Part shown: piece by piece, positions 9,001 through 28,393 of the stretch
How positions within the stretch are numbered: position 1 is the first letter of the stretch
Layout of the letters: every line of letters begins with the position of its first letter
Source: Lepisosteus oculatus
Lineage: Eukaryota; Chordata; Actinopteri; Semionotiformes; Lepisosteidae
Length of the DNA: 64,000 bases
NCBI RefSeq assembly: GCF_040954835.1
Contig: NC_090700.1
Location: 19,883,501 to 19,947,500 of the forward strand
Direction of reading: 5' to 3'
Translations under genes and position numbers: made by a program
The notes under the pieces: generated by a model
Databases searched by the model: none
What the model saw: the letters and a program-made list of their open reading frames with translations, nothing else
What the model was told of the DNA's origin: nothing

Positions 9001-12000
9001 CAGACACACTCACTCACACCAGCTTCAGTTTTATCTGAAGCCAATTAACCTACCAGTATGGTTTTGGACTATAGGAGAAAACCAGAGCACCTGAAAAAAA
9101 ACCTTCGCAAACACGTGGACAGCACACAAACTCCACACAGACAGGACACCAGGTCAGGAAAAGAACCCAGGGCCCCAACAATGCTATCCACTGCCTGACT
9201 GTGCTGCCCTAAGACTACACAATAAATTATCTAAAGCATACCTACAAATCAACAAACCCATTATGCGTGTATTTGGAAAGCATAGTAAAGCTATAAAAAA
9301 AAGAATTTTACTAAAAATACCCAAAGAACTTTCCCTTGTTTCAGAGGATCCTGCAGTGATTTTAAGTACCCCAGGAGTTCCCCATATGCCCCTTTTAGGA
9401 AAGCAGCTTCGGCCATGAAAACAATGAGAGAACCTGCAAAGATAGTTCATTCACCTTGCTGAGGGCTTCCCTGTACTGTTGAACAAAGTCCTCCATCATG
9501 CTGACAGAATAGACATCAGAGTTCTGCCACACTGTCTTAAGCTGACAGTACTCAATGTTCTTCAAGGCTCTTTTCAGGATGAAGGAGACTAGGGAGAGAG
9601 TGGTGTGCTTCACAGCGTTGTTACCCATCTATGAAAAAAACACGCACACTCCAGTTAACAAAGCCTCCTGAACTTATTCTGCAATGTAGGATGCCTAGCT
9701 TTCACTGTAAAAGTTTCCAAACAGTGGTGAAAATATCGTGCTTAAACAACAAGATTTATACAGTCACAACATAATAATATACAACCTCCATCAAGAAGCT
9801 TATTTTTGCTTATTATTTCTATATAGGTTATAAACAAGGGGAAGACATTATTTTTATACTTCTCTCAATTCATCATTATGTTACCTTTTAAAAAATATTT
9901 TTAAATGAATGAAATTCACAAACGTCAAAATGTTAAGGTATTGTCATCATGCACAAACTGTCAAGGTCTACCTAATTTTGAAATTGATAGGTGTTTAAAA
10001 GCGAAAAATGGCCATAAGAAGAACTTTTCTTATGTGAAATTAAGAACATACTGTCTTATACTATGTGAGATTTGGGCTTTTCTAGGAATTGGAATCATTC
10101 TGCAGAAAATAAATTCCTGGGGGCAGTGTCAGAGGGGCCGCCGGTTAAAGGGTAACTCACGTTAAGCCCCTGGGTGAAAAAGGCTTTGTTGCAGATGAAA
10201 GGGAGGGATGTCACCATCACCATGGACAGGAGACGAGGCAGAGGAATGAACTCCTCGTTAGAGAAAGCCCTGGACACCTCTGGCTGGGCCTCGTAAATCT
10301 AGGGTCACAGAAAGGGCACACTTAATTCCTCCTCATCAGTGGGAATCAGGCAGGGTCAAATTAGAAAGCTTCCACAGAGGGAGAAGTTAATCCAATCTAT
10401 TGCGTTAGTCCCTATAAAACATATAATTACTGGTGAGTAGCAAATCTCAGCTGGAAAAGCTGGAGAGCTTCACAGTAATGGTGGATGGCTTCTCTATTCT
10501 AGCGTTAATCATATTCGGGAATCTGGGAATCACACACGAGCCTCATCTGTAATAAAAATTGATTAAGACATCTTTTTTTCACTGTAGAAATATTGTTTAT
10601 TAGGCCATTTCGATTAATGTCTGATGCTGAGTGCTTGATTCAATCATTTATAAAATTAAGGGTTTATTTCTGCAGCTCTTTGCTCTGTGGGCTCCCTAAT
10701 GCTCTTCTCAAAAAGCAGCAATATGTCCAAAACTCTGCGGCAAGACTTTAAACTCCAGACCCCGCAGTTAAATCTCTACAATGGTCATATACAGTGCCTT
10801 GCGAAAGTATTCGGCCCCCTTGAACTTTTCAACCTTTTGCCACATTTCAGGCTTCAAACATAAAGATATAATTTTTTTATTTTATGTGAAGAATCACCAA
10901 CAAGTGGGACACAATTGTGAAGTGGAACGAAATCTATTGGATTTTTGAAACTTTTTTAACTAATAAAAAAATGAAAAGTGGGGCGTGCAAAATTATTCGG
11001 CCCCTTTACTTTCAGTGCAGCAAACTCACTCCAGAAGTTCAGCGAGGATCTCTGAATGATCCAATGTTGTCCTAAATGACTGATGGTGATAAATAGAATC
11101 CACCTGTGTGTAATCAAGTCTCTGTATAAATGCACCTGCTCTGTGATAGTCTCAAGGTTCTGTTGAAAGCGCAGAGAGCATCATGAAGACCAAGGAACAC
11201 ACCAGGCAGGTCCGTAATACTGTTGTGGAGAAGTTTAAAGCCGGATTTGGATACAAAAAGATTTCCCAAGCTTCAAACATCCCAAGGAGCACTGTGCAAG
11301 CGATCATCTTGAAATGGAAGGAGTATCAGACCACTGCAAATCTACCAAGACCTGGCCGTCCCTCTAAATTTCAGCTCAGACAAGGAGAAGACTGATCAGA
11401 GATGCAGCCAAGAGGCCCATGATCACTCTGGATGAACTGCAGAGAACTACAGCTGAGGTGGGAGAGTCTGTCCATAGGACAACAATCAGTCTTACACTGC
11501 ACAAATCTGGCCTTTATGGAAGAGTGGCAAGAAGAAAGCCATTTCTCAAAGATATCCATAAAAAGTGTCGTCTAAAGTTTGCCACAAGCCACCTGGGAGA
11601 CACCCCAAACATGTGGAAGAAGGTGCTCTGGTCAGATGAAACCAAAATCGAACTTTTTGGCCACAATGCAAAACGATATGTTTGGCGTAAAAGCAACACA
11701 GCTCATCACCCTCAACACACCATCCCCACTGTCAAACATGGTGGTGGCAGCATCATGGTTTGGGCCTGCTTTTCTTCAGCAGGGACAGGGAAGATGGTTA
11801 AAATTGAGGGGAAGATGGATGCAGCCAAATACAGGACCATTCTGGATGAAAACCTGTTGGAGTCTGCAAAAGACCTGAAACTGGGACGGAGATTTATCTT
11901 CCAACAAGACAATGATCCCAAACATACAGCAAAATCTACAAAGGAATGGTTCACAAATAAACGTATCCAGGTGTTTGAATGGCCAAGTCAAAGTCCAGAC

Positions 12001-15000
12001 CTGAATCCAATCGAGAATCTGTGGAAAGAGCTGAAAACTGCTGTTCACAAACGCTCTCCATCCAACCTCACTGAGCTCGAGCTGTTTTGCAAGGAAGAAT
12101 GGGCAAGAATTTCAGTCTCTCGATGTGCAAAACTGATAGAGACATACCCCAAGCGACTTGCAGCTGTAATCGCAGCAAAAGGTGGCTCTACAAAGTATTA
12201 ACGCAAGGGGGCCGAATAATTTTGCACGCCCCACTTTTCATTTTTTTTATTAGTTAAAAAAGTTTCAAAAATCCAATAGATTTCGTTCCACTTCACAATT
12301 GTGTCCCACTTGTTGGTGATTCTTCACATAAAATAAAAAATTTATATCTTTATGTTTGAAGCCTGAAATGTGGCAAAAGGTTGAAAAGTTCAAGGGGGCC
12401 GAATACTTTCGCAAGGCACTGTATAAAGTCACTTATTCTATCATTTCTATGGTGACAATACTCAAATCTACATCCTTACTAAACCTGACATTGATGTGGC
12501 TCTCTTCTCTCTAATTGGATCTCCGACATAAAAACATGGATGGCTCAAAATTTTCTTTATCTAAGCTGACAAGACTGAAGTCATGCTTATTGGCACCCCC
12601 ATCAACTTTGTAAAGCCGATTCTGTAACCCTATCTGTGGATGGTACTGTACTTGAACTTCAGTCTAAAATGAAAAACTTAGGGGTGAATATTTGATTTAG
12701 CCTTGACATTCGACCCACATGTGCAACATATTGTCAAAACATCTTTCTTTGACCTCAGAAATATCGCTAGACTACTCCTATGTTATCACTAACTGAGGCT
12801 GAAAAGCTGATCACCAAATTTGTCTGCTGTAACGGTCCAGTCACTGGGGTTTCTAAATCCACATTGAACAAACTCCAGTATGTCCAAAGTTCTGCAGCCA
12901 CAAACCTGACCAGGTCTAGGGCAAGTGATCACATTACTCCTATCCTGGAGTCTTTGCACTGGCTTCCTGTCAAGTTTAGTGTCAACTTAAAAATCCTCAT
13001 GCTGACCTACAAGACTCTGCATGGGTTGACACCTCAGGACCTGTCTGAGCTACTATCATCCTACTCCTCACCTTGCCATCTTCGCTCTTCTAATTCTGGT
13101 CTCCTATCTGTCCCGTCTACACACTATGAGTGACAAGGCCTTCTCCTGTTATGCCCGAAAGCTTTGGAACTCTATCCCCAAGGATATCAGAGAATCACCT
13201 TCTCTAAACTCCTTCAAATCTAGACTCAAAACCTTCTTCTTTAGAAGTACCTTTACTTAACTGGTTCTGTTCTTTATCCCTCTGCTCCTACTATATTCAA
13301 TACCCCCCATCTACTCTTATGAATTTTTTTATTGTCTCTCTGTAAAGCACTTTGAGAAGACACATTTAAAGGCGCTATCTTATAATAAACTTTATTATTA
13401 TATTATTATTATTCAATATAAGATCTTATTATTGATTTTTAAGGCTATGAATAATCTGGCTCCCTCATATATGTTTGACTCCTTTGTGTTCACACCCCCT
13501 TCTGTTGGCTCTGCTCAGTTTTTAAGGTTGTTCATTTGCTCGCAGGACCTAGGATTAAATCTTTATTAAAGATTAGAGCTTTTTCTGTTGCTGCTCCATT
13601 GGTATGAAATGCCCTTCCACAGACTCTATGACAGACAAAGAATCAAAATTATTTGATTATTTTCAAACCTAAACTTAATTAATTAATGCTTTTACTAGGA
13701 CTTATATCCGATTATTTTACAGTTTCTGCAGTACGTTCTTATTTCATTTTATGTACTTTTGATATTTTTTTATTTTATTTTTTGTATATCTTATTACTAT
13801 GTACTGATTTGGAAAAGTAATTTATTAATAAAAGTTACCATTATTATTCATTTACACACATCAAATCATGGCCTGAAATTTCAACAACAAAATGGAAAGA
13901 AAATTTACATCTCAGTAAAAATAATTATATTCACTTTTACAATATCACATTTTATTATTCATTTTTAGTTCCCTGTTAGATGGATTCATGCATACTTCTT
14001 TTACATTCATAGAGATGTATGATTCATCTTAGATTACCCATTGTTTTCCACACAGCTCATGGACCCTGAGACAATAAAGAGAATATAATGTTTAAAAGAC
14101 TGACACGCTATCTCAAACCCCTTCATAGCTCTGTGTACCTTCTTGAGGAGGTTGATGTTGTCCTTCCACGCTGTCTTCTGTCTCGGTACAAAGGAATATT
14201 GAGTCTCTTTGAAGTACCTCTGCAGCAAATCAGGACAGACTTTCAGAATACTGACCACCAGCTCAGCCACGAGTTCATCTTCCGTGGCCTGCTTCAGTCC
14301 CACAATGAACTGCAGCAGGACAACATTCCCGGACCTGAAAGGAAAGAAGAAATAACGAAAGTGCCCAGAAAATGTCCCTGCTCTCAAACTGACAATACTG
14401 ACTAATCAATCAAGACTAATCAAAAGAGGCTTTTCAAGATCATCTTCTCCCTTTTCTTCCTCCTTTGTCACACCCCTGTATTTTATTCTGCCATGAAAAA
14501 GACAGGTATAACTACATAATTAAACTAACGACAGATGAAACACTTTTATAGTTTATAAAGTATATTTCAATTATCCAACTCTAAAAGCTAAGCACACCTA
14601 CCCTGTTTGGTAGTTAGTGGCTAATTAATCTAACGATTATATCCAGCATTTCTTGAAAGAAGGTATCAACATGGATGGGTAATGTGTTCCACACTCCTAC
14701 CACCTTTTGAGTAAAGAAGTACCTCATGCTCATGCTTTTCAGTGCAGTTTTATGTACTTTCCACTTGTTTCTTGTGGTTCGTGTGTCACTGTTGATTCTG
14801 AATAAATCCACTGATTTGACTTTACCTTTGTGGATTTTGAATGCTGGCTGAAGGTGATTAAAGACACAGATCTGTTTTCTGCCAGCTCCCTTACACAGTT
14901 CTGATTGGCATTGTGAAATCATAAGTGCAGTGATGGAGTTTCAGTTCTGTCTTTGGCAGCTTGTAAAAGCCTGCTGGCACTTCCAAGCCTGAAGCATAAC

Positions 15001-18000
15001 CAGCACTTAATAATACTATATACTTTGCAGGACAGAGATTTTCTTGTAAGGGATTTACGGAATCTTGATGTGTTTTCTTAAATACCTCATGGCTGCTGCA
15101 CACATTCCAGTGAAAACATTGGGTTTGCTTTGCATGGGCAATTCACATACAAAGGGATATATGAGAAACTTCACACTTCACCACTTTCCCATTTTCATGG
15201 CAAATAAGGGTTTTGTTTCCACACACATAATGTGCAAATTGCAAAAATTAAAAGTACAACTCCACCATAGAAGAAAAACAATCTTAACACAGTAGTTACC
15301 TCCCAGCTGTTCCTAGGCTTTGGTCATAGAAATTAATGCCATGATTAAGGGAACAGCAGAGATCCAGGAGGAAGTTGTGAGTCAGCTCTCGCACCACCAT
15401 CCTCCCAGCCTCACCAGGGTCCACAGCCATCTGAGGAAAAGAAACAAAACATAAATCCAGAAAAATGAAACAACACTTCTCTTTCTGTTGCTGGATGACA
15501 ATCTCTGCTGTTTTTAACATTTGTTCTATCTCCTTATACACCTATCCAATTTTTAATTGCCAGTTGTGTCACTTCATGTCCCGGTTCACACTTCCTCCAA
15601 TCTGCCCCACCTTCGAGTCACCCATCTTCACAGGGCTCAGGCTACACGGCACCTGCAGGAAGTGTCCCTTGCAGACAGGACCACAAGCCTGCTGGTGTCT
15701 GGGAAATCGTAGGGGTCATGTGTCATCGGAAGCCAAAATGCCCCTAGCTGAATTATACTGACCGCACTCCGAGTGTCAGTCCGCCAACTATGCTCCTCTC
15801 CTTGACAAATCCTGGTCACAGTCGGCTAGTGACTCAGGAGCCAATCCGCGACACCAGCATCACATTACTCAGACTGAGGGATAACTTTACTGACTGAGCC
15901 CTCCTCCATTAAAACTGAAAAACAACAGCAGGGACAAACCTTGGACTCCTCTGGGATGGCATCTGCTATTCCATTCCACTTGTACAGGGAGGCAATGTGA
16001 GCCAGCACTGCAGAACTGAAGAAGCGCACTTTTTGAGTCTTACTTATTGCTTTGTTTTGAACAACCTGAAAAGCAAAAATACAAAACCTCAGGAGAAATT
16101 GATTCAGAATGTACAATATGTTTTGCTTCAATTCCTCAATTCAATTTAGTGAACAGTGGGATGGCCATTCACAGTTTTATAGAGTATTTGTTGTCGAGGG
16201 GTTCTTGGGTTCAAACCCCAGCTCTGCCAGAGTTTTATAAAGCTCTGTTTTTCTGTTTAGATATAAAATAGAGGAGCAGCAGTCCTCCATTTCTGTAAGC
16301 ACTCTGTAAGTTGGATGGAAGCATTAGTATAAAGAAGACTATGTTTACTCTTTTACTTATTTTGCTAGAATTCAGACTTAAAATTCCAGTCAAACTCCAA
16401 GTCATTTGCAATCTGTTGGACGGTGCCAGATAAAATTTGGCAAAATCTTTTTAGGAATTACAAACTCTAAGTAACACAAAAAGTAATCTTAAAATAAGAT
16501 GCTAGAGTCACAGTCATAGAAACATGAGATCTCTTCCTTATTACCGAGGTGTTACCAGTAGTACTGGGAATCCACTAAACAATTCAGTTTCTATCATTTC
16601 ATGAGAACTAAAAAGAGATAAGAAGAAAAAGCAGGCATTACTTCCTTTTACTGTGCCTCTTTTACTGTGTGTAAAGAGCCTTAAGAAAAATCCTATGTCT
16701 GTCTAAAAAAAAAATGTCAATAGCTTAATCGCCACACAGAAAAAAACACAGAAGACATGACGCACATCTGGCACAGAGTTTGAGACTTCTGCCACAAGCC
16801 TTGACCATTCATCAGAGACCTCCATTACATTGGAAATGAACGAAAAATGTGAAAGCACAACAATATTATTGCGTAAAGCCTGTGTAGTCAGAAAAAATAC
16901 CTATTGGAATGAACTATCTGAAATAAAAATCACAGGCTTTTCTGCAAACAGTTTTTACACCACATATTACTCATCTATTCTAGAAATACAGAACGGTAAA
17001 TATGCACAAAAAAGAATCTAAAATGTTTAAATACATCAAAACTTACTTTAGTCTGTAGTGTAGACAACAGGAGATTGATAGAAGAAATTCTATCATCCTT
17101 CAGCCCCGTGCTTAAAATATCAGTAAGGAAATCTAGAGCAAAGAAAAATAAGGTTGTCTTTAATATTAAAGTCTATTTAAAGATGTCTGTCTGAGTTTTA
17201 ACCAAATATCAGTGGACATTACTGGTAGCATGACTTATGTGAACCTGAAAAATAATATATATATAAGAAAAACAAATATTACCCTTTGTCTCAAGAACTT
17301 GTCCTATTGTCTGGTTGTCACCGGAAATTAGAAATGAAACTGCAAACTGGATGTAAGCCAAGCGAATATCAGGCTTGCCCTGGTTTAATGAAAAAGGACA
17401 CTTATATCAGCAGAGCAAAAACAGTTTATTACCGATATAGTTATGCGCTGATCTGAATCCAAATAAAAAAGAAATGCCAGGGTTAAGCAACACAACTTTT
17501 ATTAACTACTCTATTTACTTCTTAGCACAAATATCCTTAAATATCCACAAATAACACCCGAAGAAGGCCCCAGAGCCAAAATGTTGCATTTCTTTTCTTC
17601 TCTTTTCAGCATGGAATAAACCTTTACTTGTCCCTTTGTAGCCTACGCAAGCTGACGCAGCTACCTACTTGCTGAAGTGGTAAATCTAATCTCAGGTGAC
17701 AAACAACACATAACAGATTCCACTATGTCATTATTTATTTAACAAAAAATAAGCCAACATGCAGAAGCCATGTGTGAAAAAGTAAGTACACCCCAGGATT
17801 CAGTAGAACCACCTTTAGCAGCAATAACTTGAAGTAATCGTTTTCTGTACGAGTTTATCAGTCTCTCACATGGTTTTGGAGGAATTTTGGCCCACTCTTC
17901 TTTACAACATTGCTTCAGTTCATTGATGTTTGAGGGCATTCGTTTATGCACAGCTCCCTTAAGGTCCCGCCACCACATTGTTTCAGAAATCTTGTGGTTT

Positions 18001-21000
18001 GTTCAGATGCAACTTTGCAAACCTAAGCCGTGCTGCCTCGTTCTTTTTGGAGAGAAGGGGCTTTTCCTGGCTACCCTTCCATGAAAGTCATACTGTACCT
18101 GTTCAGTCTTTTTCTGATCGCACTGTCATTAATATTTAACGTACAATCCCTAGATGTAGCTCTTGGGTTCTTTGCGATTTCTCTGAGCATTATGCGGTCT
18201 GACCTTGGGGTGAATTTGCGGGGACGCCCACTCCTGGGAAGATCGGCAACTGTATTGAATGTTCTCCATTTGTAAATAATCCTTCTCACTGTAGAAGGAT
18301 GGATTTCAAATTTTTTGGAAAAGGCCTTATAACCCTTCAAGTGCATTTGATTAGCAGCATCTGGTTGCTAATTACCTTCTTAATTCCTATGGGAGCAGTA
18401 AGGGTGTTCTTAATTTTGACCACATAGTTTCTGCATATTGGCTTACTTTTTGTTGAATAAATAATGACATAGCGAAATCTGTTATATGTTGCAAAGGAAC
18501 AAGTAATAGGTTTATTCCATGCTGAAAAAAAGAAGAAAGAGAACACAACGTTTCGGCCGTGGAGCCTTCTTCAGGTGTGAGAGAGACAGGGCAGTAGGCA
18601 AAGGTAAAGTAGCTGGAGAACAAAGGTTGGGAGGGAGGAGGAGTGAGAGGCGGGAGAGGGCCCCAATGGAGGGATCATCCTGTAGGATGGAAAAATTCTG
18701 GTTAATGGTCCTGGGGATAGGAAGTGTGTTAGGGTGGTAAGGAAGCACCAAGGGAATGCGGTTGTTACGGCGGGAGTTCCTGATCGGGTTGATGGTCCGG
18801 GGGGTGTTTTTGGCTCGGGCAAGGGCCCTGTCAATCACACTGCTGGGATATCCTCTGTTGATAAAAAATGAGTACATTTCGAGGGCTTGGTTCTTGAAGT
18901 CGATGTCGTCGCTGCATAGTCTTCGTAACCTAAGGAACTGTGAAAAAGGAAGAGAGTTTTTAGTGTGGTTGGGGTGAAATGAGCTGTACAGGAGGTAGCT
19001 GTGTGAATCCGTGGGTTTGTAATAAACTGAAGTGGAAAGTCGGGGGTAGTTGATAGACAAGTGGATGTCTAGAAACGGAAGAGTGGTGGAAGATATGTGA
19101 ACTGTATATTTGAGGGACGGGTGGAAGTTGGTGAAATGGTGCAGGAAGAACTCGAGCTGATCGTTGGAGCATGTGGCGGCACCGACGCAATCATCAATAT
19201 ATCGTTTGTAGAGGTCAGGGACATAGCCAGTGTAGGAGGCGAAGAAGCGTTCTTCTACCCAGCCGACAAAAATGTTGGCATAGCTGGGTCCCATTCTGGT
19301 GCCCATGGCAACTCCACTGACCTGTTGGTAAAAAAGATTATTGAAAGAGAATGCGTTCAGTGTGAGGACCAATTCTGCAAGGCGTACCAGGGTGTGGGTG
19401 GGTGGATCAAGCACTGTGCGTTTGTCCAGCGTGTGCTTGAGTGCTGTAAGGCCGTCATTATGGGGAATGACGGTGTACAGAGATGTGATGTCCATGGTAA
19501 AAATGTGGCATTCGGTACCCTGAAATTGGAAATCATTGAAAAGTTGGAGCGCGTGGTTGGTGTCTTTGATGTATGAGGGAAGATCTTCAACCAGCGGTCT
19601 CATGAGGCTGTCGAGAAAGGCTGAGATGTAAGTAGTTGGACAGTTACATGCTGATACGATGGGGCGTCCAGGGGTGTCCGGTTTGTGGATTTTGGGGAGG
19701 AGGTAAAATTGAGATACCTGTGGATGTTCCATGATGAGCCGGTTCGCCTCCTGGGGGAGCTCGTTACTGCTGATAAGAAGGGAAATGGTGGATACCACTC
19801 CCTTTTGGTAGTCAGTGGTAGGGTCCTGTTGGAGAGGGAGGTAGGCAGAAGTGTCAGTTAGTTGTCTAGAGGCTTCAAAGATATATAGATCCTTACGCCA
19901 CACCACAACAGCACCTCCTTTGTCCGCTGGTTTGATGACGATATCATCCCTGTTGCGGAGAGACTGGAGCGCCTGATTTTCTCCTCACCCCAGGAGAAAA
20001 TCAGGCGCTCCAGTCTCTCCGCAACAGGGATGATATCGTCATCAAACCAGCGGACAAAGGAGGTGCTGTTGTGGTGTGGCGTAAGGATCTATATATCTTT
20101 GAAGCCTCTAGACAACTAACTGACACTTCTGCCTACCTCCCTCTCCAACAGGACCCTACCACTGACTACCAAAAGGGAGTGGTATCCACCATTTCCCTTC
20201 TTATCAGCAGTAACGAGCTCCCCCAGGAGGCGAACCGGCTCATCATGGAACATCCACAGGTATCTCAATTTTACCTCCTCCCCAAAATCCACAAACCGGA
20301 CACCCCTGGACGCCCCATCGTATCAGCATGTAACTGTCCAACTACTTACATCTCAGCCTTTCTCGACAGCCTCATGAGACCGCTGGTTGAAGATCTTCCC
20401 TCATACATCAAAGACACCAACCACGCGCTCCAACTTTTCAATGATTTCCAATTTCAGGGTACCGAATGCCACATTTTTACCATGGACATCACATCTCTGT
20501 ACACCGTCATTCCCCATAATGACGGCCTTACAGCACTCAAGCACACGCTGGACAAACGCACAGTGCTTGATCCACCCACCCACACCCTGGTACGCCTTGC
20601 AGAATTGGTCCTCACACTGAACGCATTCTCTTTCAATAATCTTTTTTACCAACAGGTCAGTGGAGTTGCCATGGGCACCAGAATGGGACCCAGCTATGCC
20701 AACATTTTTGTCGGCTGGGTAGAAGAACGCTTCTTCGCCTCCTACACTGGCTATGTCCCTGACCTCTACAAACGATATATTGATGATTGCGTCGGTGCCG
20801 CCACATGCTCCAACGATCAGCTCGAGTTCTTCCTGCACCATTTCACCAACTTCCACCCGTCCCTCAAATATACAGTTCACATATCTTCCACCACTCTTCC
20901 GTTTCTAGACATCCACTTGTCTATCAACTACCCCCGACTTTCCACTTCAGTTTATTACAAACCCACGGATTCACACAGCTACCTCCTGTACAGCTCATTT

Positions 21001-24000
21001 CACCCCAACCACACTAAAAACTCTCTTCCTTTTTCACAGTTCCTTAGGTTACGAAGACTATGCAGCGACGACATCGACTTCGAGAACCAAGCCCTCGAAA
21101 TGTACTCATTTTTTATCAACAGAGGATATCCCAGCAGTGTGATTGACAGGGCCCTTGCCCGAGCCAAAAACACCCCCCGGACCATCAACCCGATCAGGAA
21201 CTCCCGCCGTAACAACCGCATTCCCTTGGTGCTTCCTTACCACCCTAACACACTTCCTATCCCCAGGACCATTAACCAGAATTTTTCCATCCTACAGGAT
21301 GATCCCTCCATTGGGGCCCTCTTTTCTGATCGCCCTATCATCTCATATCGCCGACCACCTAATCTGCGTAACCTCCTTGTTCACAGCTCCCTTGACCGCC
21401 CTCAACAACCATCCACACCAGGCACTTTCCCTTGCAACAGAGCTCGCTGTATCACCTGCAAGTATACAGCCACCACCACACTCATTCAAGGCCACTCAGG
21501 ACAATTCCGGATCACCCAGACAGCATCTTGTACCTCCAGCAACCTTATTTACTGTATCTCTTGCAGTAAATGCCCAGCCATCTACATTGGTGAAACAGGA
21601 AGGAGACTCGGAGACCGCTTCAGAGAACACGTCAGGGCTGTGAAAATTAAAGATCTCTCCAAGCCCATTGTTTCTCATTTCACCTCTGACGGCCACGACC
21701 ACACTAATCTCTCCGTCTGTGTTCTCAAAGACGGTTTTCCGAACTCATACATCAGAAAGACCACCGAAACCAAAATTATTCTGCAGCTAGGATCACACAT
21801 TCTCCCTTCTCTTCACGACAGACTACTGTTCTTTTAAATTTTCTCCATTCATTGGAAGTTTCATTTCACACCTCTGCACCCATTCTGACTTCACACCTCT
21901 TGATTGGCCCCTCTTTCTGTCCCCTGCTCCCGCCTCTCACTCCTCCTCCCTCCCAACCTTTGTTCTCCTGCTACATTACCTTTGCCTACTGCCCTGTCTC
22001 TCTCACACCTGAAGAAGGCTCCACGGCCGAAACGTTGTGTTCTCTTTCTTCTTTTTTTCAGCATGGAATAAACCTATTACTTGTTCCTTTGAAGCCTATG
22101 CATGCTGACGCAGCTACCCACCTGAACTACTATGGCATAATCTTTCCAGGTTAATCACATAAAATACAGTATCTTTGCAGGAAGTCAGTATACGGATCTC
22201 TCTCTCTAGCTCACGGGGCTAGGTCGCTGCAGAGAGACGCGGAAGTCCCGGGTTCGAGCCACCTATACTTTGGGCCGACCATGGTGGATGGCTTCTCTAT
22301 TCTAGCGTTAATCATATTCGGGAATCTGGGAATCACACACGAGCCTCATCTGTAATAAAAAATTGATTAAGACATCTTTTTTTCACTGTAGAAATATTGT
22401 TTATTAGGCCATTTCGATTAATGTCTGATGCTGAGTGCTTGATTCAATCATTTATAAAATTAAGGGTTTATTTCTGCAGCTCTTTGCTCTGTGGGCTCCC
22501 TAATGCTCTTCTCAAAAAGCAGCAATATGTCCAAAACTCTGCGGCAAGACTTTAAACTCCAGACCCCGCAGTTAAATCTCTACAATGGTCATATACAGTG
22601 CCTTGCGAAAGTATTCAACCCCCTTGAACTTTTCAACCTTTTGCCACATTTCAGGCTTCAAACATAAAGATATAAATTTTTTATTTTATGTGAAGAATCA
22701 CCAACAAGTGGGACACAATTGTGAAGTGGAACGAAATCTATTGGATTTTTGAAACTTTTTTAACTAATAAAAAAAATGAAAAGTGGGGCGTGCAAAATTA
22801 TTCGGCCCCTTTACTTTCAGTGCAGCAAACTCACTCCAGAAGTTCAGCGAGGATCTCTGAATGATCCAATGTTGTCCTAAATGACTGATGGTGATAAATA
22901 GAATCCACCTGTGTGTAATCAAGTCTCTGTATAAATGCACCTGCTCTGTGATAGTCTCAAGGTTCTGTTGAAAGCGCAGAGAGCATCATGAAGACCAAGG
23001 AACACACCAGGCAGGTCCGTAATACTGTTGTGGAGAAGTTTAAAGCCGGATTTGGATACAAAAAGATTTCCCAAGCTTCAAACATCCCAAGGAGCACTGT
23101 GCAAGCGATCATCTTGAAATGGAAGGAGTATCAGACCACTGCAAAGAGATGCAGCCAAGAGGCCCATGATCACTCTGGATGAACTGCAGAGAACTACAGC
23201 TGACGCAGCTACCCATCTGTTATATGTTGTCTGTTATCTGAGGCTAGATTTGTCTAATTACAGAAGTTGGTGAGGACCAGACGATTGTTACTTATGCCCT
23301 GATATGTAAAACCACTGAATTGAAAGAGGGTGTACTTTCTTTTTCACATGACTGTATACTTATACATCTTACAGTCTTATTGACTTCCTCTTCGTTAAAG
23401 TCTAATAATTAGATGGGTTTTGACTATTTCTAAGGACAATCTTAGAGTCAGCTGGAGTCTGTTTGTAGCAGGTCTGGCAGCTGACAGGTCTGTGATCTCA
23501 CCTGTTTGTCTCTTCTCCTTGCCAGTCCGGAAAGACTCTTGCCGAAGTTGAAGTTACTGAATACCTCTCTGGCAGAGTCTGGCCCTTGTGAAACCATAGC
23601 AGACAGGAGGCTAAGACACTGCCGCACATACCTGAGTGGGGCAGAAGAGAACATCCGAAATGAGGAGTTAGGCTTTATTATTGTGGTCCCTCTAATGACT
23701 TACAACTTAATAAAGAGTCCTAAGGTAATAATGCCTGTAGTGCAGACCTCTTTAAGAAACGATGCCGTGTCTTTTCTGGAATTAAACCACCAAAACATTA
23801 CAGGGAATGATGTGTTCCATATGAGTAACTCACTCATCATGACAACTGTAAAATAGTGGCAGACTGCGACTTTTCCTCAGTGTCCTTTGGTAGAAGAAAG
23901 AAAGCTAAAGTAGGTGGCATGGCTGTTGGTACATGTGCATTTATGAAAGCAACAGCAGACATGGCTAATGTGTATATTTTAAGATATACAAGCAATGGCT

Positions 24001-26367
24001 GACAGATAAAACACTAACAGGAAGCAAATTCAGACTGCAAGAAACTACAGAACGGCTAACGAAATCTCACTGTTGGAAGTGGACTGACCAATTATAGGAG
24101 CATTATCTAACATTTTTGTAAGTCAGTAGAGTTTTAACATTAATAGGATGATAGATCAGTGTAAAACAGTTGGGATGTTTACCTCACTGAAGAAGACTAT
24201 CTAGGGGGGAAGTTATATATTTTGATAAAAACTATAATTATGCGCAATTATATAATCAAACAACTGAGCAAAGCTATTAACGTAGACTCAACTACTTAAG
24301 ACTGGAGTGATCATATGACTCAGCTATCACACTTAGTACATACCTGTGATTTTCAGAATGCAACACAGAACAAATAATTTTCATAAAGCTGGAGACTATC
24401 TTCTTCACAATGGCAATGCCAGCCATGCTGAAGTGAGACAGGTCGCTGGCTGTTCGTAGCAGGATCATTTCCAAGCCCTGGAAGATCAACGCTGTCTGGA
24501 AGCAAAGAGATTGAGACATACTTATCACCCACTGGAAGTTATCTGTGGGATTCTGCTTCAAAAACAACAATAAACAAATCTTAATGCACATGAGCAACAG
24601 TAATCAATAATGTGCTCTAAATTCAAAGGCATTTATTCTCATTCCTTAAAACACCCAGGTCCTGAGTGTGATCTGTTCATAACAGGCTTGCGTAAAGGGT
24701 AGGTCAGGTCTCATGAAGAGCATACAGCAGCTAACTTATTTATATTTATATAATTTTAAATGTGTCTTTGGCATCACTATATAAATCTACCAAAACAAAT
24801 AACACACAACACAAAATAAATAAATTTTAATCAATAGCCCTAGCTGTACATATACACACACAACGCATTACACTATCATTACATTAATCTGTGAGCTTCA
24901 TACAAGAAGCAGTCACTTAACATACCTTGTGCTGACAAGCTCAAGAAACTGAAAATCTTGTATTCTGAACAAAGAATATGAAACAACACCATGATACAAA
25001 TATTCAAAACCCTGCAAGGCATTTAGAAGGTGATCCCAATGGGCTGCATAATGCTAAGATGTGAACTAAATAAAGTATCCTTGAACGACAAACAGAAATT
25101 GTGAGTGTGCATTACATTCATGCTGTTGAAGAAGCACGTCTAGAATCCCTCAAGACAAAGCTGGATGTGCATTCATATCACAAGCCACTGACATTTGAAA
25201 AAGCACGACAGGCCAGATAAGTTCCAACAACAGGGGGCTTTGCTATGTTTTACTTCAAAGGCGGGTGTATTTTACTACACCAACACTCATGCTAAGGCAG
25301 AAAATTATAAACAAAGACAAAAGAACATGATAGTGACATAGTTCCAATTCACAACCCAACCATCTGCTTAGGTTTTGCATGTAATTAAAATAAAACAATG
25401 GTACTGACTTCGCTCTCCAAACGTTTTTCTTCCTCCAGCAATTTCAGTATTTCAGCACAATCCATAGATATTTTTATATAGCCTTCAACCACATCATATA
25501 ATCCAGGGCAGGGCAATTGTTTAGCAACTGATATGAAGGTTTCCAAACCTACAAGTAATATAAGAGGAGGGAAAAATTGTTATAATTTATTGAAAAATCT
25601 CTACAGCTAATAGGTTACAAAGACTATCATGTGTCAGACACAACTTTAAATGATTATTTCCTACACATTAATGAGCTGTAACAGCAACGTCTACAGTTGC
25701 AGAATAGAACAGGTATAAACCATCCCTTAGGCATGAGCGGATTTCTGAGATTTACCTGCTACGTTCCAAAGCTCTGTAGACGAACACAAGTGACAGTCAG
25801 ACAAGGTCTTAAAAATGAGTATACTTGTTAGAAGCTTAAAGATAAAAACAAGATGTTCAGAGCCAAGTTTATTACCTAGAAATCATCCATGAGAGATAGT
25901 AGTACAATGTCCCATAAATAAAGTATTGTATATTGCTATTTAATAATAATGAAATAAGATGACAAGTCTTATGCACGACTGGTTTGTATGACAAAAAAAA
26001 AACAAGAACGACTGTTATTCCGACACAAATACGCCGGTTTGATACTTCTGAAACAGCTTGACAGTAGTGAGGAAAAAAAATTATGAGCTATCTGCTGCCG
26101 ACGTCTAATTTCAATTTAAAGAAGTACGATGATAAGAAAAAACATTACTTTGGATTATTTCGTTCATAATACAAGATATTCATGGATTTTATTTTAATTA
26201 AGCTACAGGGATGAACAAGTGACACGTACAGTACCTTTCTTTGCTTTGGTAGGCTCTTTTAACATGCTTTTAAATACAGTTCCGTTCAACTCAACTTCAG
26301 ATACTTTGGGTTTCTTTTCCTGTGTATCAGATTCCGTTGAATCTTCATTTTTGCGTTTTTTCGCCAT
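81..26367 (-). CDS. URB1: URB1, nucleolar pre-ribosomal-associated protein 1 (5' part; 19 exons, 3' part outside window)
   Basis: URB1 (yeast Urb1/Npa1) is a large helical-repeat nucleolar protein needed for early 60S pre-ribosome assembly. Coding exons in transcript order: 26367-26235, 25548-25409, 24495-24344, 23631-23502, 17379-17283, 17132-17047, 16065-15940, 15430-15300, 14334-14139, 10298-10161, 9628-9455, 8450-8336, 7715-7593, 6922-6810, 6681-6562, 4813-4697, 3746-3608, 1942-1772, 289-81. All have AG/GT borders and every junction keeps phase, giving 2,610 nt or 870 codons without a stop. Diagnostic stretches are YDVVEGYIKIS (exon 2), LLRTASDLSHF (exon 3), KTQKVRFF (exon 7), LVAELVVSILKVCPDLL (exon 9), EFIPLPRLLSMVMVT (exon 10) and FPFSALVPAALEARN (exon 18). 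The start was placed at MAKKRK, followed by a lysine-rich N-terminus like that of human URB1; an upstream in-frame ATG (26397) would add ten residues. The human protein is about 2,270 aa, so roughly 60% lies beyond base 1. Exon borders were read by eye. Confidence 0.93.
592..775 (-). repeat. Interspersed repeat family A (fragment)
   Basis: Reading the minus strand, the piece starts with the typical 'gtggttagcattgctgcctc' module, then 'gggccctgggttcaattc', a 'gttctccctgtgtttcctcc' module and 'ccaaaacatactgg'. Related copies in this window lie near 8878, 28585, 33485, 44605, 45635 and 58883. This is a very common fish repeat; I do not assign a formal family name. It lies in the URB1 intron between exons 18 and 19. 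Confidence 0.65.
1325..1765 (+). repeat. Interspersed repeat family B (L2-like 3' end)
   Basis: Recognisable modules in order: 'tcctaatgccccagtatag', 'ctcctgactctcagtggtca', 'cttgaaaagag', 'catggcctcctattaatccc', 'gctctcctccccactgaaag' and 'agcactttgagcggagactc'. The same modules recur at 30355-30700 and 45836-46325 (both minus) and 56995-57445 (plus). The 'aagcgctttgag...aaagcgctatataa' ending followed by ATT repeats is typical of fish L2-type LINE 3' ends and SINEs that share them. The copy stops just before URB1 exon 18. Confidence 0.65.
3874..3930 (+). repeat. Penelope-like element 3'-region relic
   Basis: A short decayed match to the 3' untranslated segment of the PLE copies at 22008 and 28206: 'ctgaagaaggctccacag' followed by 'ttgaaatgttgtgtttcttc'. 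No coding part remains. It lies in an intron of URB1. Confidence 0.5.
4190..4385 (+). repeat. LINE 3'-end relic
   Basis: Contains 'agagagttgtaggtctaagg', 'gaagctgcccagacatgttg' and the very common fish ending 'ctgaatggcctcctcttgtt'. The pieces resemble the decayed C-terminal end of a LINE reverse-transcriptase ORF plus tail. Similar material lies at 14600-14930 and 34560-34890. The formal family is not assigned. Confidence 0.5.
5176..6396 (-). mobile_element. Degenerate Tc1/mariner transposon
   Basis: The terminal inverted repeats are diverged: the left end reads 'ggctatcaaaaatattcact' and the right end, on the minus strand, 'tgggatatcagaagtattca'. On the minus strand 5716-5519 keeps transposase sequence, including GRRFIFQQDNDPKH, the second catalytic aspartate region of Tc1-like DDE enzymes. 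Reading frames upstream and downstream are broken by stops and shifts. This is an old, non-coding copy in the URB1 intron between exons 15 and 16 and belongs to a different family from the copy at 10792. Confidence 0.8.
8878..9215 (-). repeat. Interspersed repeat family A (long copy)
   Basis: Minus-oriented copy. It has the 'gggccctgggttc' module, the 'tgtgtggagtttgtgtgctg' module, 'gcctgtgatggactggcag' style sequence and an end near 'ttctaaccgcttcttccaat' as seen on the plus strand. It lies in the URB1 intron between exons 11 and 12. Confidence 0.65.
10479..10791 (+). repeat. Intron segment with L2-like LINE relic; duplicated at 22281-22595
   Basis: Two things overlap here. From about 10565 the plus strand reads as a decayed LINE C-terminus, with LLKKQQYVQNSAARL recognisable before a stop. 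The whole block from 'atggtggatggcttctctat' is also found almost base for base at 22281-22595, where it again leads straight into a Tc1 terminal repeat. The second copy therefore derives from this locus or a close relative of it. The segment sits in URB1 intron 9. Confidence 0.7.
10792..12421 (+). mobile_element. Tc1/mariner transposon, near-intact, about 214-bp terminal inverted repeats
   Basis: The ends are 'cagtgccttgcgaaagtatt' on the left and its reverse complement on the right, flanked by TA on both sides (10790-10791, 12422-12423), the normal Tc1/mariner target duplication. Both inverted repeats are about 214 bp (10792-11005, 12208-12421) and nearly identical, which points to a young insertion. 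One transposase gene lies between them. The element is in URB1 intron 9, in the opposite orientation to URB1. A truncated second copy is at 22596-23203. Confidence 0.92.
11183..12201 (+). pseudogene. Tc1-like transposase, single frameshift
   Basis: The cut-and-paste DDE transposase of the surrounding element. The first part (11183-11395) carries the paired-type helix-turn-helix DNA-binding region, with NIPRSTVQAIILKWKEY and the GRPSK motif before the second helix set. A one-base frame change between about 11375 and 11394 leads to a stop. The other frame continues to 12201, open from 11419 and visibly homologous from about 11390, with the catalytic core: VLWSDETK (first D), FQQDNDPKH (second D) and DLNPIENLWKELK (E). 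There are 34 residues between the second D and the E, so this is DD34E. Together the parts approach the usual length of about 340 aa. The frameshift makes this copy inactive unless it is a sequencing or assembly error. Confidence 0.88.
12424..13405 (+). mobile_element. L2-type LINE 3' fragment (decayed reverse transcriptase)
   Basis: Plus-strand frames show, in L2 order, a decayed YADD-like box (FYGDNTQIYI near 12450), KTEVMLIGTP, LTEAEKLITKFV (12780 on), YVQSSAATNLTRSRASDHI, LESLHWLPV and LLTYKTLHGL-like sequence. It ends with 'taaagcactttgagaagaca' and an ATT-rich tail. Frames are interrupted by stops and shifts; the longest open piece is 12780-13133. It directly follows the right end of the Tc1 at 12421, in URB1 intron 9. 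Confidence 0.8.
13410..13680 (+). repeat. Second LINE C-terminal relic
   Basis: A short decayed match to a LINE reverse-transcriptase C-terminus (FKAMNNLAPSYM followed by broken frames) just downstream of the L2 tail. Assigned by pattern only. Confidence 0.4.
14600..14930 (-). repeat. LINE 3'-end relic
   Basis: On the minus strand an open stretch includes TRTTRNKWKV and MRYFFTQKVVGVWNTLP, the typical end of a fish LINE ORF also seen at 34560-34890. No intact element is present. Confidence 0.5.
15560..15905 (-). repeat. Possible SINE-like repeat
   Basis: On the minus strand the sequence starts 'gggctcagtcagtaaagtta' and runs through 'gtgtcgcggattggctcc' and 'gcattttggcttccgatgac'. The opening resembles a tRNA-derived A box. 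I see no second copy in the window, so the call is weak. It overlaps the intron just downstream of URB1 exon 7. Confidence 0.3.
17544..17673 (+). repeat. Penelope-like element 3' tail (diverged subfamily)
   Basis: Matches the 3' untranslated region of the PLE copies: 'cccgaagaaggccccagagc', 'ttttcagcatggaataaacc', then 'gcctacgcaagctgacgcag'. It ends at 'ctacc', directly before the inner terminal-repeat sequence of the Tc1 that starts about 17683. No coding sequence is left. Confidence 0.7.
17683..18491 (-). mobile_element. Tc1/mariner transposon, 3' part (split by the PLE composite)
   Basis: Minus-strand transposase remains: the N-terminal helix-turn-helix part at 18346-18071 (HPSTVRRIIYKW, LPRSGRPRKFTPR) and the C-terminal part at 17978-17739 (MWWRDLKGAVHKRMPSN, VIAAKGGSTES). 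The DDE core between them is deleted. Terminal-repeat sequence at about 17683-17730 ('aaatctaatctcaggtgaca') matches, in inverted form, 23230-23265. The 5' terminus of this element therefore lies at 23215-23356, on the far side of the 4.7-kb insertion. The outermost bases of this left repeat are missing and PLE tail sequence abuts it. Confidence 0.82.
18492..19985 (-). mobile_element. Penelope-like element, left arm of palindrome, internally deleted
   Basis: This arm is the reverse complement of 19992-21322 joined to about 21930-22091. Position x here pairs with 39977-x for the coding part. Its ORF (19906-18512) gives 464 residues with the complete reverse transcriptase. It then runs into untranslated sequence, because about 607 bp holding the GIY-YIG endonuclease were lost near 18656 at a 2-bp 'ct' microhomology. 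It ends 28 bp short of the PLE 3' terminus, directly against a 15-bp target duplication (18477-18491). One residue difference was noticed relative to the right arm (DFKNQ against DFENQ). Confidence 0.9.
19986..22119 (+). mobile_element. Penelope-like retroelement (Neptune-type), right arm, 5'-truncated
   Basis: The coding sequence is open from the palindrome centre to 21837, followed by about 280 bp of 3' untranslated sequence ending 'gctgacgcagctaccc'. That terminus is also seen at 23214, 28317 and 17673. The N-terminal roughly 100 codons of a full PLE are missing; they survive in the copy at 26958-27280 (LSKGLSFVPVP). The 3' region has 'ctgaagaaggctccacggcc' then GAAACG, close to the core of hammerhead ribozymes reported from PLEs. 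Confidence 0.92.
19993..21837 (+). CDS. PLE polyprotein: reverse transcriptase + GIY-YIG endonuclease (5'-truncated)
   Basis: A Penelope-family enzyme that copies element RNA at a nicked target. The frame reads GENQALQSLRN, then IVIKPADKGGAVVVW (the PLE N-terminal RT signature) before the first GTG used as a start at 20071. In order: RPIVSACNCPTTYI, motif A FTMDITSLYTVIP, motif B GVAMGTRMGPSYANIF, motif C YIDD and motif D TLPFLDI. C-terminal of these are cysteine pairs (CITCKY, CISCSKC) and the GIY-YIG domain YIGETGRRLGDRFREH. From 20071 it is 588 residues without an internal stop, so all catalytic motifs are intact. It lacks a proper start and the N-terminal region, so autonomous activity is unlikely. 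It is transcribed opposite to URB1. Confidence 0.93.
   Translation, partial: GENQALQSLRNRDDIVIKPADKGGAVVVWRKDLYIFEASRQLTDTSAYLPLQQDPTTDYQKGVVSTISLLISSNELPQEANRLIMEHPQVSQFYLLPKIHKPDTPGRPIVSACNCPTTYISAFLDSLMRPLVEDLPSYIKDTNHALQLFNDFQFQGTECHIFTMDITSLYTVIPHNDGLTALKHTLDKRTVLDPPTHTLVRLAELVLTLNAFSFNNLFYQQVSGVAMGTRMGPSYANIFVGWVEERFFASYTGYVPDLYKRYIDDCVGAATCSNDQLEFFLHHFTNFHPSLKYTVHISSTTLPFLDIHLSINYPRLSTSVYYKPTDSHSYLLYSSFHPNHTKNSLPFSQFLRLRRLCSDDIDFENQALEMYSFFINRGYPSSVIDRALARAKNTPRTINPIRNSRRNNRIPLVLPYHPNTLPIPRTINQNFSILQDDPSIGALFSDRPIISYRRPPNLRNLLVHSSLDRPQQPSTPGTFPCNRARCITCKYTATTTLIQGHSGQFRITQTASCTSSNLIYCISCSKCPAIYIGETGRRLGDRFREHVRAVKIKDLSKPIVSHFTSDGHDHTNLSVCVLKDGFPNSYIRKTTETKIILQLGSHILPSLHDRLLFF
22120..22195 (+). 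repeat. PLE 3' flank shared with 28318-28393
   Basis: 76 bp starting 'acctgaactactatggcata' and ending 'aagtcagtatacgg' follow the PLE terminus here and also follow the PLE copy at 28317, with one mismatch noticed. The PLE tails at 17673 and 23214 are not followed by it. It is therefore flank carried along with the element rather than part of its normal terminus. Confidence 0.8.
22196..22280 (+). repeat. tRNA-derived SINE head (fragment)
   Basis: Contains an A-box-like 'tagctcacggg' (22207-22217) and a B box 'ggttcgagcc' (22251-22260) at tRNA-like spacing. The sequence between does not fold into a convincing full tRNA and there is no intact acceptor stem, so I call a SINE promoter fragment, not a tRNA gene. 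It lies between the PLE flank and the duplicated intron-9 block. Confidence 0.5.
22281..23203 (+). mobile_element. Duplicated URB1 intron-9 block with truncated Tc1 (Tc1 part 22596-23203)
   Basis: Almost identical to 10479-11456: host/LINE sequence first, then the left terminal repeat and the start of the Tc1 transposase ORF (22988-23182). Compared with the source, 58 bp (source 11341-11398) are deleted. The copy stops within the transposase at 'cagctga', where it fuses to a PLE tail through shared 'gctga'. The 3' half of the transposon is absent, so it cannot transpose. Confidence 0.88.
23199..23214 (+). repeat. PLE 3' terminal tail closing the composite insertion
   Basis: 'gctgacgcagctaccc' equals the last 16 bp of the PLE copies at 22119 and 28317. 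It is followed immediately by the right copy of the 15-bp direct repeat (23215-23229). Confidence 0.75.
23215..23356 (-). mobile_element. Tc1/mariner 5' terminus (other side of the split element)
   Basis: Read on the minus strand the end is 'tacagtcatgtgaaaaagaa', then a repeat whose inner part ('caaatctagcctcagataac') matches the left terminal repeat at about 17683-17730. With 17683-18491 it forms one Tc1 element interrupted between 18491 and 23215. URB1 exon 4 begins 146 bp further along (23502). Confidence 0.75.
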
Positions 26368-26949: not shown

Positions 26950-28317
26950 TAATCCCTCCTCAGCAAAGGGCTCAGTTTTGTACCAGTTCCCAGGAAGCTG
27001 GACATCCCCCAGACCAATGTTGACCTTAACCGCTTTTACCGCACGATCCGTCTCAGAGCACATTTTGCCGACGATTCCTCTTCACAGGCAGCTGATAACA
27101 ACCCGGTTATTGATGTCATTAACAACATTAATCCCAAACAGAGCTGTTGAACTCCCCCTCTGGCCGTTTTCCACCAGTTGATTATTTCATCAACCAATGC
27201 ACTAATCAAGCTCCCAAGGCACTCACCCAGTAAACACAGGTCTAACCTCACCCAAGTAGAAAATCAGGCACTCCAGTCTCTCCGCAAAAAAACAACAACA
27301 ACAAAAAAATAAAATAAAATAAAATAAAAGATTCATCAACAGAGGATACCCCAGCAGCGTGATTTACAGGGCCCTTGCCCGAGCCAAAAACACCCTCCGG
27401 ACCATCAACCCGATCAGGAACTCCCGCCGTAACAACTGCATTCCTTTGGTGCTTCCTTACCACCCTAACACATTTCCTATCCTCAGGACCATTAACCACA
27501 ACTTTTCCATCCTACAGGATGATCCCTCCATTGGGGCCCTCTTTTCTGATCGCCCTATCATCTCATATCGCCGACCACCTAATCTGCGTAACCTCCTTGT
27601 TCACAGCTCCCTTGACCACCCTCAACAACCATCCACACCAGGCACTTTCCCTTTTGACAGAGCTCGCTGTATCACCTGCAAGTACACATCCACCACCACA
27701 CTCATTCAAGGCCCCTCAGGACAATTCCGGATCAAGCAGACAGCATCTTGTACCTCCAGCAACCTTATTTACTGTATCTCTTGCAGTAAATGCCCTGCCA
27801 TCACATTGGAGAAACAGTAAGGAGACTCTGAGAACACGTCAGGGCTGTGAAAATTAAGGATCTCTCCAAGCCCATTGTTTCTCATTTCACCTCTGACGGC
27901 CACGACCACTCTAATCTCTCCGTCTGTGTTCTCAAAGACGGTTTTCCGAACTCATACATCAGAAAAACCAAAATTATTCTGCAGCTAGGATCACACATTC
28001 TCCCTTCTCTTCACGACAGACTACTGTTCTTTTAAATTTTCTCCATTCATTGGAAGTTTCATTTCACACCTCTGCACCCATTCTGACTTCACACCTCTTG
28101 ATTGGCCCCTCTTTCTGTCCCCTGCTCCCGCCTCTCACTCCTCCTCCCTCCCAACCTTTGTTCTCCCGCTACATTACCTTTGCCTACTGCCCTGTCTCTC
28201 TCACACCTGAAGAAGGCTCCACGGCCGAAACGTTGTGTTCTCTTTCTTCTTTTTTTCAGCATGGAATAAACCTATTACTTGTTCCTTTGAAGCCTACGCA
28301 TGCTGACGCAGCTACCC
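26950..28317 (+). mobile_element. Penelope-like element, copy 3, reverse-transcriptase core deleted
   Basis: The 5' part (26958-27280) encodes the PLE N-terminus absent from the other copies, beginning LSKGLSFVPVPRKLDIPQ, with a stop after NNINPKQSC. At 27286-27329 an A-rich stretch replaces the whole RT core. The element resumes at 27330 with the region before the endonuclease (RALARAKNT, CITCKY, CISCSKC). The GIY-YIG motif is broken by deletions near 27805-27830. The 3' untranslated region (28036-28317) is almost identical to 21838-22119. It lies between the divergent URB1 and EVA1C genes and shares its 3' flank with the URB1-intron copy. Confidence 0.9.
27286..27329 (+). repeat. A-rich simple sequence at PLE deletion junction
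   Basis: Runs of A with CAA and TAAAA units fill the gap where about 1.1 kb of reverse-transcriptase sequence is missing compared with the copy at 19986-22119. Confidence 0.8.
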
Positions 28318-28393
28318 ACCTGAACTACTATGGCATAATCTTTCCAGGTTAATCACATAAAATACAGTTTCTTTGCAGGAAGTCAGTATACGG
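28318..28393 (+). repeat. PLE 3' flank, copy shared with 22120-22195
   Basis: The 76 bp after the PLE terminus match the flank of the PLE at 22119 and then diverge ('tttttgaccattag' here). Confidence 0.8.

Follow-up and report, generated by a model that had tools for sequence, protein, structure and literature searches.

How Penelope-like elements (PLEs) finish their insertions is unsettled. The closest described systems are Pen1, Pen2, and Pen3a of the rotifer Adineta vaga, PLEs with inverted pseudo-LTRs, a layout that is reported also in fruit flies and fish (PMC3846280). Rotifer Pen1 carries a 0.9-1.5-kb spacer of captured host DNA before its 3′-terminal repeat, and Pen3a holds a host gene between its repeats (PMC3846280). 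For the anole Poseidon element PAc, an internal start of reverse transcription and the cutting and extension of both strands are reported (PMC11167929). In vertebrates, Pace et al. 2009 described repair-mediated SDSA duplications with proximal donors within 5 kb and copies of at most 619 bp (PMC2671141).

Here, we discuss an insertion that can be read base by base, in a 64,000-nucleotide stretch of Lepisosteus oculatus DNA (the window). Its readable parts are a probable templating of one arm on the other, or conversion between them (suggested by a shared base), the join of old and new element (through diagnostic sites), and two captured pieces with addresses. Like Adineta vaga Pen1/Pen2/Pen3a, the element combines RT and GIY-YIG with head-to-head copies, a central palindrome, a tail at one end, and a short target duplication (PMC3846280). 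In contrast to Pen1 and Pen3a, the captured DNA has two traced donors, 4.7 and 7 kb away, plus a SINE head of unfound source, and an old copy nearby has taken the place of part of the element, which also sets it apart from the rotifer PLEs (PMC3846280).

The target is a Tc1-like element, and the insertion is bounded by two copies of ATCTGTTATATGTTG:

17682..18491, minus strand: left part of the hit Tc1-like element, which resumes at 23230 and runs to about 23350; boundaries approximate
18477..18491, no strand: left copy of the target site duplication, 15/15 identical to 23215-23229 and flush with the tailless PLE end
23215..23229, no strand: right copy of the target site duplication, from the repeat identity and the genome flank matches

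In the genome, 37 of the 39 other scored matches to the right flank start exactly at 23215, the remaining two at 23217 and 23225. The opposite terminal repeat of the hit Tc1-like element itself, which is intact, served as a stand-in for the empty site; when the flanks are joined and one repeat copy is kept, they align with it across the joint without gaps. The perfect repeat and this alignment bear out the initial annotation, which had described a 15-bp duplication around a block inside a Tc1 element, and they support the reading of the approximately 4.7-kb block as one integration unit with one target duplication. Both outer ends had also been taken for PLE 3′ ends, and they are: the left lies at U2110 and the right at U2136, or at about U2141 if one mismatch is permitted. 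The ATCTG following the 16-bp tail is one base off the tail's ACCTG, so that synthesis may have started within the usual range. SINE, LINE, and Tc1 are what we take these repeats to be, judging by their sequence.

Successive parts of the Pfam Npa1 domain are matched by six of the ten minus-strand ORFs tested, and the PLE insertion is therefore placed in an intron of an Npa1-domain (URB1-like) gene on the minus strand. The profile search gave only the Npa1 domain; we presume the gene to be URB1, a vertebrate ribosome-assembly gene.

Judged from its sequence, the inserted element is a PLE of a young family. Its ORF matches RVT_1 with E 2.6e-05, at a score (24.5) below the Pfam cut-off of 29.6, and its C-terminal part matches GIY-YIG (PF01541) with E 1.6e-04, at a score (22.3) just short of the cut-off of 22.6. 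The protein gave no match in the PDB up to E 0.01. A hammerhead ribozyme is present in some PLE clades and is not required in all. In the window's family, the two loci searched (L015 and L027) gave no Rfam match to it up to E 0.5, a difference from PAc (PMC11167929).

A survey covered 20 of the 31 other locus clusters, namely those with the highest scores, which are probably also the youngest copies. The head-to-head layout was found at 11 of these 20 loci, each with one end at U2140-2150 and the other at U2094-2110; overall, 18 ends are tailed (U2140-2150) and 13 tailless (U2094-2111). This spread of the tailed ends is comparable with the internal start reported for PAc (PMC11167929). Target duplications measure 11-15 bp at 19 of the 20 loci, the twentieth (L021) being weaker, at 9 bp. 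Non-PLE sequence longer than 30 bp inside the insertion was found at none of the 20. Compared with the survey, the extra DNA in the window's PLE is exceptional; the capture is thus a single case, which counts against the explanation favoured below.

The PLE parts of the insertion up to the point where the family sequence changes are as follows:

18492..18660, minus strand: distal left PLE piece, about U1939-2110, with the tailless end and young-family alleles
18655..19985, minus strand: inner left PLE arm, U7-1337, with 1 difference in 1331 against the right arm
19986..19991, no strand: palindrome centre, 6 bp, from the arm comparison
19992..21766, plus strand: right PLE arm of young-family sequence, carrying part of the RT and GIY-YIG open frame (19939-21834)

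The single difference between the arms is a mismatch in the comparison of 18655-19985 with 19992-21322. The left arm lacks about 606 bp, corresponding to 21323-21928 of the right arm, and is rejoined at two shared bases (by eye); among the matches scored in the genome search, this deletion junction is spanned by this locus only. The left arm retains young-family tail alleles. Moreover, both arms have a G at U192, where 14 of 14 other copies read have an A. With a 201-bp query, only the two arms reached the top score, the other 38 of the 40 scored (from 526 candidates) being one mismatch lower. Because the arms share a private base absent from all copies read, one of them probably served as template for the other; alternatively, the base could reflect later conversion between the arms or a source copy outside the assembly. 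Palindrome centres in the family carry fold-back and partial repeats, which suggest template jumping. Rfam matches raised a microRNA as a candidate at the centre, which was rejected with scores below the gathering thresholds.

Further right, the young-family sequence gives way to that of an old PLE lying nearby:

21767..21770, plus strand: interval of the change from young to old PLE (AAAC), bordering 9 bp that are deleted from the old copy
21771..22132, plus strand: PLE 3′ part from old PLE 27969-28330
22133..22195, plus strand: 3′ flank of the old PLE (28331-28393); two genome occurrences found, both in the window
26952..28393, plus strand: right donor, an old internally deleted PLE (26952-28330) and its 3′ flank, from the genome search and markers

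Across 21114-21766, 25 substitutions and three indels distinguish the old PLE from the family, and the right arm shows the family state at 24 of the former and all three of the latter. The exception, site 21645, interrupts an otherwise clean switch and sits uneasily with the explanation favoured below. Between 21771 and 22099, by contrast, the right arm is old-type at nine of ten diagnostic events and of neither type at one (21969). The old PLE and the right arm thus show 29 differing events over the 653 positions that precede the switch and two over the 362 that follow it (p 0.0002), and the diagnostic sites narrow the change to 4 bp. In total, the last 425 bp of the right arm match the old PLE and then its 3′ flank, a donor that lies 4.7 kb rightward (4.7-5.2 kb from the target). 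The copy from this 28-kb locus had been thought to start at 22120, with 76 bp of flank as at 28318. It begins instead inside the PLE, at 21767-21771; the PLE tail reaches 22132, 13 bp further, which leaves 63 bp of non-PLE flank and removes 22120-22132, which is PLE tail, as captured flank. A query over 22116-22198, covering the 22119/22120 and 22195/22196 junctions, found two places in the 1.2-Gb genome, both in the window, the other copy ending at 22195. The genome searches skip very common words and score about 40 candidates. The old PLE apparently has an imperfect duplication of its own, ATGGC(G/A)TAATC, seen by eye; a script listed only an unrelated 6-bp repeat there.

Beyond the flank of the old PLE follow three more pieces, with a second donor to the left of the target:

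22196..22280, plus strand: tRNA-like SINE head, 85 bp, so labelled from its sequence
22281..22591, plus strand: copy of a LINE fragment (10478-10788), from alignment and genome search
22592..23203, plus strand: Tc1 part that corresponds to 10789-11456 except for 57 bp deleted at 23144/23145; its last 5 bp (gctga) are also in the PLE tail
23199..23214, plus strand: last 16 bp of the PLE tail before the duplication, from tail alignment
10478..11456, plus strand: left donor, a LINE fragment with a Tc1 element inside, from alignment and genome search

The order of segments in the initial annotation stands with these refined boundaries. Neither the window nor the fetched loci gave a match to the SINE head other than this locus, and a tRNA scan of the window returned none. 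The following 923 bp (22281-23203) match the LINE/Tc1 locus 7 kb leftward (7.0-8.0 kb from the target). A copy of 10479-11456 had been reported here; the copy is real, starts at 10478, and has five further differences besides the 57-bp deletion. For LINE part 22283-22590, the 10-kb locus is the one near-identical partner, the other 38 of 40 scored (from 206 candidates) showing 71-82% identity. In five of the six LINE-family members shown, the upstream sequence resembles the 10-kb locus and is unlike the block (by eye), which argues that copying ran from the 10-kb locus to the block and that 22280/22281 is a true break. For the same reason, the SINE head and LINE body were rejected as a single repeat family. 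The Tc1 part is taken as continuous with the LINE part, which is the part traced. It could come from another Tc1 copy, since Tc1 itself is repeated elsewhere: positions 22676 and 22769 agree with the opposite terminal repeat of the donor Tc1 and not with the copied one, and the GG-to-AA change at 22617-22618 occurs in none of four Tc1 stretches compared. The unfound SINE donor and the possible other source of the Tc1 part both count against the explanation we favour.

The Tc1-to-PLE-tail join shares gctga, as noted earlier, over 23199-23203, and among 40 scored of 98 candidates this right junction is spanned here only. At the two joins where both sources are traced, microhomology thus comprises gctga (5 bp) and the AAAC at 21767-21770. 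These searches bear on whether a composite element was inserted whole, insertions nested stepwise, or the assembly is wrong. The target Tc1, LINE, and SINE families are repetitive and long palindromes can be misassembled; however, the junctions are unique where tested, which led us to reject a composite element elsewhere in the genome, the outer ends are flush with one duplication, and misassembly would not give head-to-head pairs at 11 of 20 loci, each with its own duplications. We regard such origins as highly improbable.

The two traceable donors, the old-PLE flank and the LINE part, lie on opposite sides of the target and within 8 kb of it in a 1.2-Gb genome. This placement bears on a rather unlikely scenario in which target-primed reverse transcription by the PLE enzyme switched among RNA templates, namely PLE tail, Tc1/LINE RNA, SINE RNA, read-through RNA of the old PLE, and young PLE RNA. 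The PLE's reverse transcriptase signal, the template jumping suggested at palindrome centres, the uptake of host DNA between terminal repeats in rotifer Penelope elements (PMC3846280), and the plausibility of SINE RNA as a template are in keeping with it, as is the related anole enzyme, which is reported to cut and extend both strands and to start internally (PMC11167929). The joins, however, show no poly(A) or splice signature (by eye), and both traceable donors are local. Moreover, the gene runs along the minus strand. It probably contains the left donor, although this donor sits past the final ORF that matches Npa1, whereas the right donor lies outside it, beyond its inferred start; hence, a single host transcript is unlikely to have provided both in the same sense. 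LINE-1 chimeric insertions likewise show several templates within one target duplication, but the chimeras described there join small RNAs, Alu, and mRNA fragments, whereas the window's traceable donors are both local DNA (PMC13174262). The initial annotation had proposed one reverse-transcription event that switched templates, including templates from this locus. The single unit, single duplication, unique tested junctions, and same-locus templates hold; reverse transcription for all the switching is weakened by the nearby donors on opposite sides of the target.

Local donors would also fit two steps, in which a complete PLE palindrome came first and its tailed end later broke and was rebuilt by strand invasion into the old PLE, with switches to the SINE and the 10-kb locus and rejoining at gctga. 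The young/old change is in homologous register and stops at the 9-bp heterology, and the left arm keeps its young-family tail alleles, as if only the right end had been rebuilt. Such a break must spare no more than 16-21 bp of tail next to the duplication, an interval that chance would seldom hit, and nothing marks the captured parts as younger than the arms. Of 1348 positions compared, 8 differ between these parts and their donors, while the arms have four unshared private changes in 3278 bp (p 0.008, the measures not being like for like; p 0.07 without two Tc1 sites, and 0.24 if half of the differences arose in the donors). We consider the two-step course unlikely.

By a slight lean, we favour a single PLE insertion in which the tailed end stalled and repair synthesis (SDSA/MMBIR-like) then finished it with neighbouring DNA as template, since local donors, microhomology at the joins, and a chimeric acceptor together match the published repair signature (PMC2671141). 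A young PLE would have integrated once into the Tc1-like element in the intron of the URB1-like gene, with target-primed synthesis on the right side halting after about 16-21 nt. The open end would then pair through gctga with the Tc1/LINE locus, 7 kb away, and be extended there by repair-type DNA synthesis; synthesis would next take the SINE head, followed by the flank and tail of the old PLE 4.7 kb away. Annealing of the new strand, by PLE homology, to the young PLE strand would close the gap (SDSA or microhomology-mediated break-induced replication). Synthesis may have run in this direction or in the opposite one. The gap of about 606 bp in the left arm may have arisen when the fold-back strand was end-joined to a short left cDNA that had been primed on its own.

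As in the SDSA duplications, there is a near donor, microhomology at the join, and a chimeric acceptor from two donors; those duplications are interruptions of transposable elements, whereas the capture here is at the end of a retrotransposon insertion (PMC2671141). The sizes also differ. One captured piece is longer (923 bp) and the other similar (425 bp), and the donors, at 4.7-8.0 kb, lie mostly past the 5-kb limit published together with the 619-bp maximum, a departure that counts against the favoured explanation.

More broadly, and only tentatively, PLE integration may itself use neighbouring chromosomal DNA as a template, duplicating local sequence and recombining old and new copies in one event, given that a related element opens both target strands. 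If true, this would be a route of local capture distinct from LINE-type 3′ transduction and from RNA chimeras. If it recurs, PLEs would make extra copies of the host DNA around them, a role already proposed in rotifers, and the positions of donors would be useful for separating DNA from RNA templates. At ten survey joins, a search for local templates of the fillers gave five matches that do not clearly beat shuffles. The four longest matches (L013, L016 twice, and L022) lie within PLE parts of those same insertions, and the L025 filler has a 10-base match inside L025's own arm.

The block at 18492-23214 is bounded on both sides by a perfect 15-bp repeat (18477-18491 and 23215-23229), for which a chance origin is negligible (computed as ~1e-7 even allowing slack at both ends). 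When the flanks are joined with a single repeat copy, they align without gaps to the other terminal repeat of the Tc1-like element they belong to; hence, the repeat is a target duplication inside a Tc1 element, as the initial annotation had claimed. Among the best 40 of 98 candidates scored in the genome (1.2 Gb, 813 contigs), 37 of the 39 right-flank matches elsewhere have 23215 as their first base, and the remaining two begin slightly further on, by a few bases. A 120-bp older Penelope-like element (PLE) tail fragment (17554-17671, ~84% identical) directly adjoins the Tc1-like element that was hit.

The right arm of the insertion (19992 onward, plus strand) lies within a 632-codon open frame with RVT_1 and GIY-YIG signals, both slightly below the Pfam cut-offs. 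Combined with the paired-end layout, these signals identify the inserted element as Penelope-like. We surveyed 20 other PLE loci, drawn from the best genome-search matches, using unit (U) coordinates from the genomic unit of one of them, L015. A target duplication of 11-15 bp is present at 19 loci, while at L021 it is just 9 bp and set off from the element end. Head-to-head pairs occur at 11 of the 20, and in each of these one end lies within U2140-2150 and its partner within U2094-2110. The left end of the window insertion, U2110, falls in this range; on the right the insertion ends at U2136 and continues with ATCTG in place of the tail's ACCTG, and given this one-base mismatch the start point may be about U2141. 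A comparable mismatch at the overlap is seen at L018. At its ends the insertion fits the family. Non-PLE sequence longer than 30 bp between PLE pieces is absent from all 20 surveyed loci (maximum 30 bp, L022). Two single-arm insertions (L011 and L023) have the tailless end only (U2110 and U2111), yet carry target duplications of 14 and 12 bp. More than one near-identical PLE unit lies inside one target duplication at L015 (2064-7418; 3037-bp units in tandem) and L027 (972-8974; tandem plus inverted).

The right arm changes identity along its length. In 21114-21766, an old PLE at 26952-28330 differs from the young family by 25 substitutions and three indels, and the right arm agrees with the family at 24 substitutions (the exception is 21645) and all three indels. 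In 21771-22099, it agrees with the old PLE at nine of ten distinguishing events and with neither at 21969. Before the switch, 29 events separate the old PLE from the right arm over 653 positions; past it, the count falls to 2 over 362. The copied stretch continues past the old PLE end into 63 bp of flank, as far as 22195; the initial annotation had recognized this flank copy but gave its length as 76 bp. A query spanning the 22195 end finds two genomic places, both inside the window, supporting the proposed origin within the same locus. Because the old PLE is apparently bounded by a separate, imperfect duplication (seen by eye; an exact-match scan did not list one), its flank seems native and copying seems to have run from this locus to the block.

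After 22195 come an 85-bp SINE head and 923 bp matching 10478-11456, a LINE fragment containing Tc1, with a 57-bp deletion and five small differences. This copy ends in gctga, common to the PLE tail. The segment order first described holds. Apart from this 10-kb donor, the LINE part has no match above 82% among the matches scored. Since the Tc1 part is repeated elsewhere, its 10-kb origin would follow from continuity with the LINE part. Upstream LINE-family sequence continues at the 10-kb locus and in five of the six members shown, and stops in the block. At two small differences from its donor (22592-22812 versus 12205-12425), the captured Tc1 part agrees with the other terminal repeat of the donor element; copying or conversion may have crossed between the two inverted repeats.

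Six of ten tested minus-strand ORFs (24.3 to 14.0 kb) correspond to consecutive portions of Npa1, which on this evidence places the insertion within an intron of a gene that we take to be URB1-like:

14034-24603, minus strand: exons of the URB1-like gene (Npa1 domain) with transposons in its introns, from ORF matches to Npa1

The 10-kb donor is probably inside this gene, past the last Npa1-matching ORF. An ORF at 26.2-26.4 kb looks like the gene start, with the old PLE to its right.

Both traceable donors lie within 8 kb of the target (4.7-5.2 kb and 7.0-8.0 kb), which argues for DNA templates. PMC2671141 describes 824 of 1136 repair captures ≤5 kb from the donor, and reports joins with microhomology, 20 acceptors that are chimeric and 80 zebrafish cases; donors are near both there and in the window block. 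We lean toward a PLE insertion that stalled and was completed by repair synthesis. PLE synthesis would have stalled soon after its start on the right side, as the tail preceding the duplication is just 16-21 bp long, and repair synthesis would have followed. One template-switching reverse-transcription event, as first read, remains apt in its same-locus templates, but switching between RNA templates is less likely given such local donors. Moreover, with this gene layout, the old-PLE flank would be missing from a single minus-strand pre-mRNA, and any plus-strand transcript of the 10-kb donor would be antisense. Repair of an already complete PLE at a later time is slightly less probable again, since the captured parts do not look younger than the arms and, if anything, have more changes (8 in 1348 versus 4 in 3278; p 0.008), an excess that drops to p 0.07 or 0.24 under stricter counts. 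PLE palindromes, rotifer host captures and vertebrate repair captures are each already known singly; a literature search, with most subscription journals outside its reach, found no PLE insertion with traced local donors.

The two arms (the inner left arm being 18655-19985, minus strand) differ at one of 1331 positions. Both have G at 20177 and its mirror site, a position at which all 14 family copies read carry A. Among the matches scored for a 201-bp query around 20177, only the two window arms reach the top score, and the remaining 38 of the best 40 (526 candidates) fall one mismatch below it, presumably the 20177 base. This common private G and the search result suggest that one arm was probably templated on the other, or later converted by it. 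Arms end ≤50 nt apart in 5 of 12 head-to-head pairs, the window pair included (~1e-4 under uniform ends), and self-priming has been inferred from such palindromes in rotifers (PMC3846280). The left arm lacks ~606 bp, and its terminal 169 bp carry young-family alleles where the right arm has those of the old PLE, so it was not made as a full copy of the completed right arm. Both the gap and the young alleles would be expected if the fold-back strand was joined to a short cDNA primed on the left. At L016 (3875-3976), the palindrome centre has an 82-bp PLE piece repeated, with the short filler GTTACATG common to both joins, and looks like repeated template slippage.
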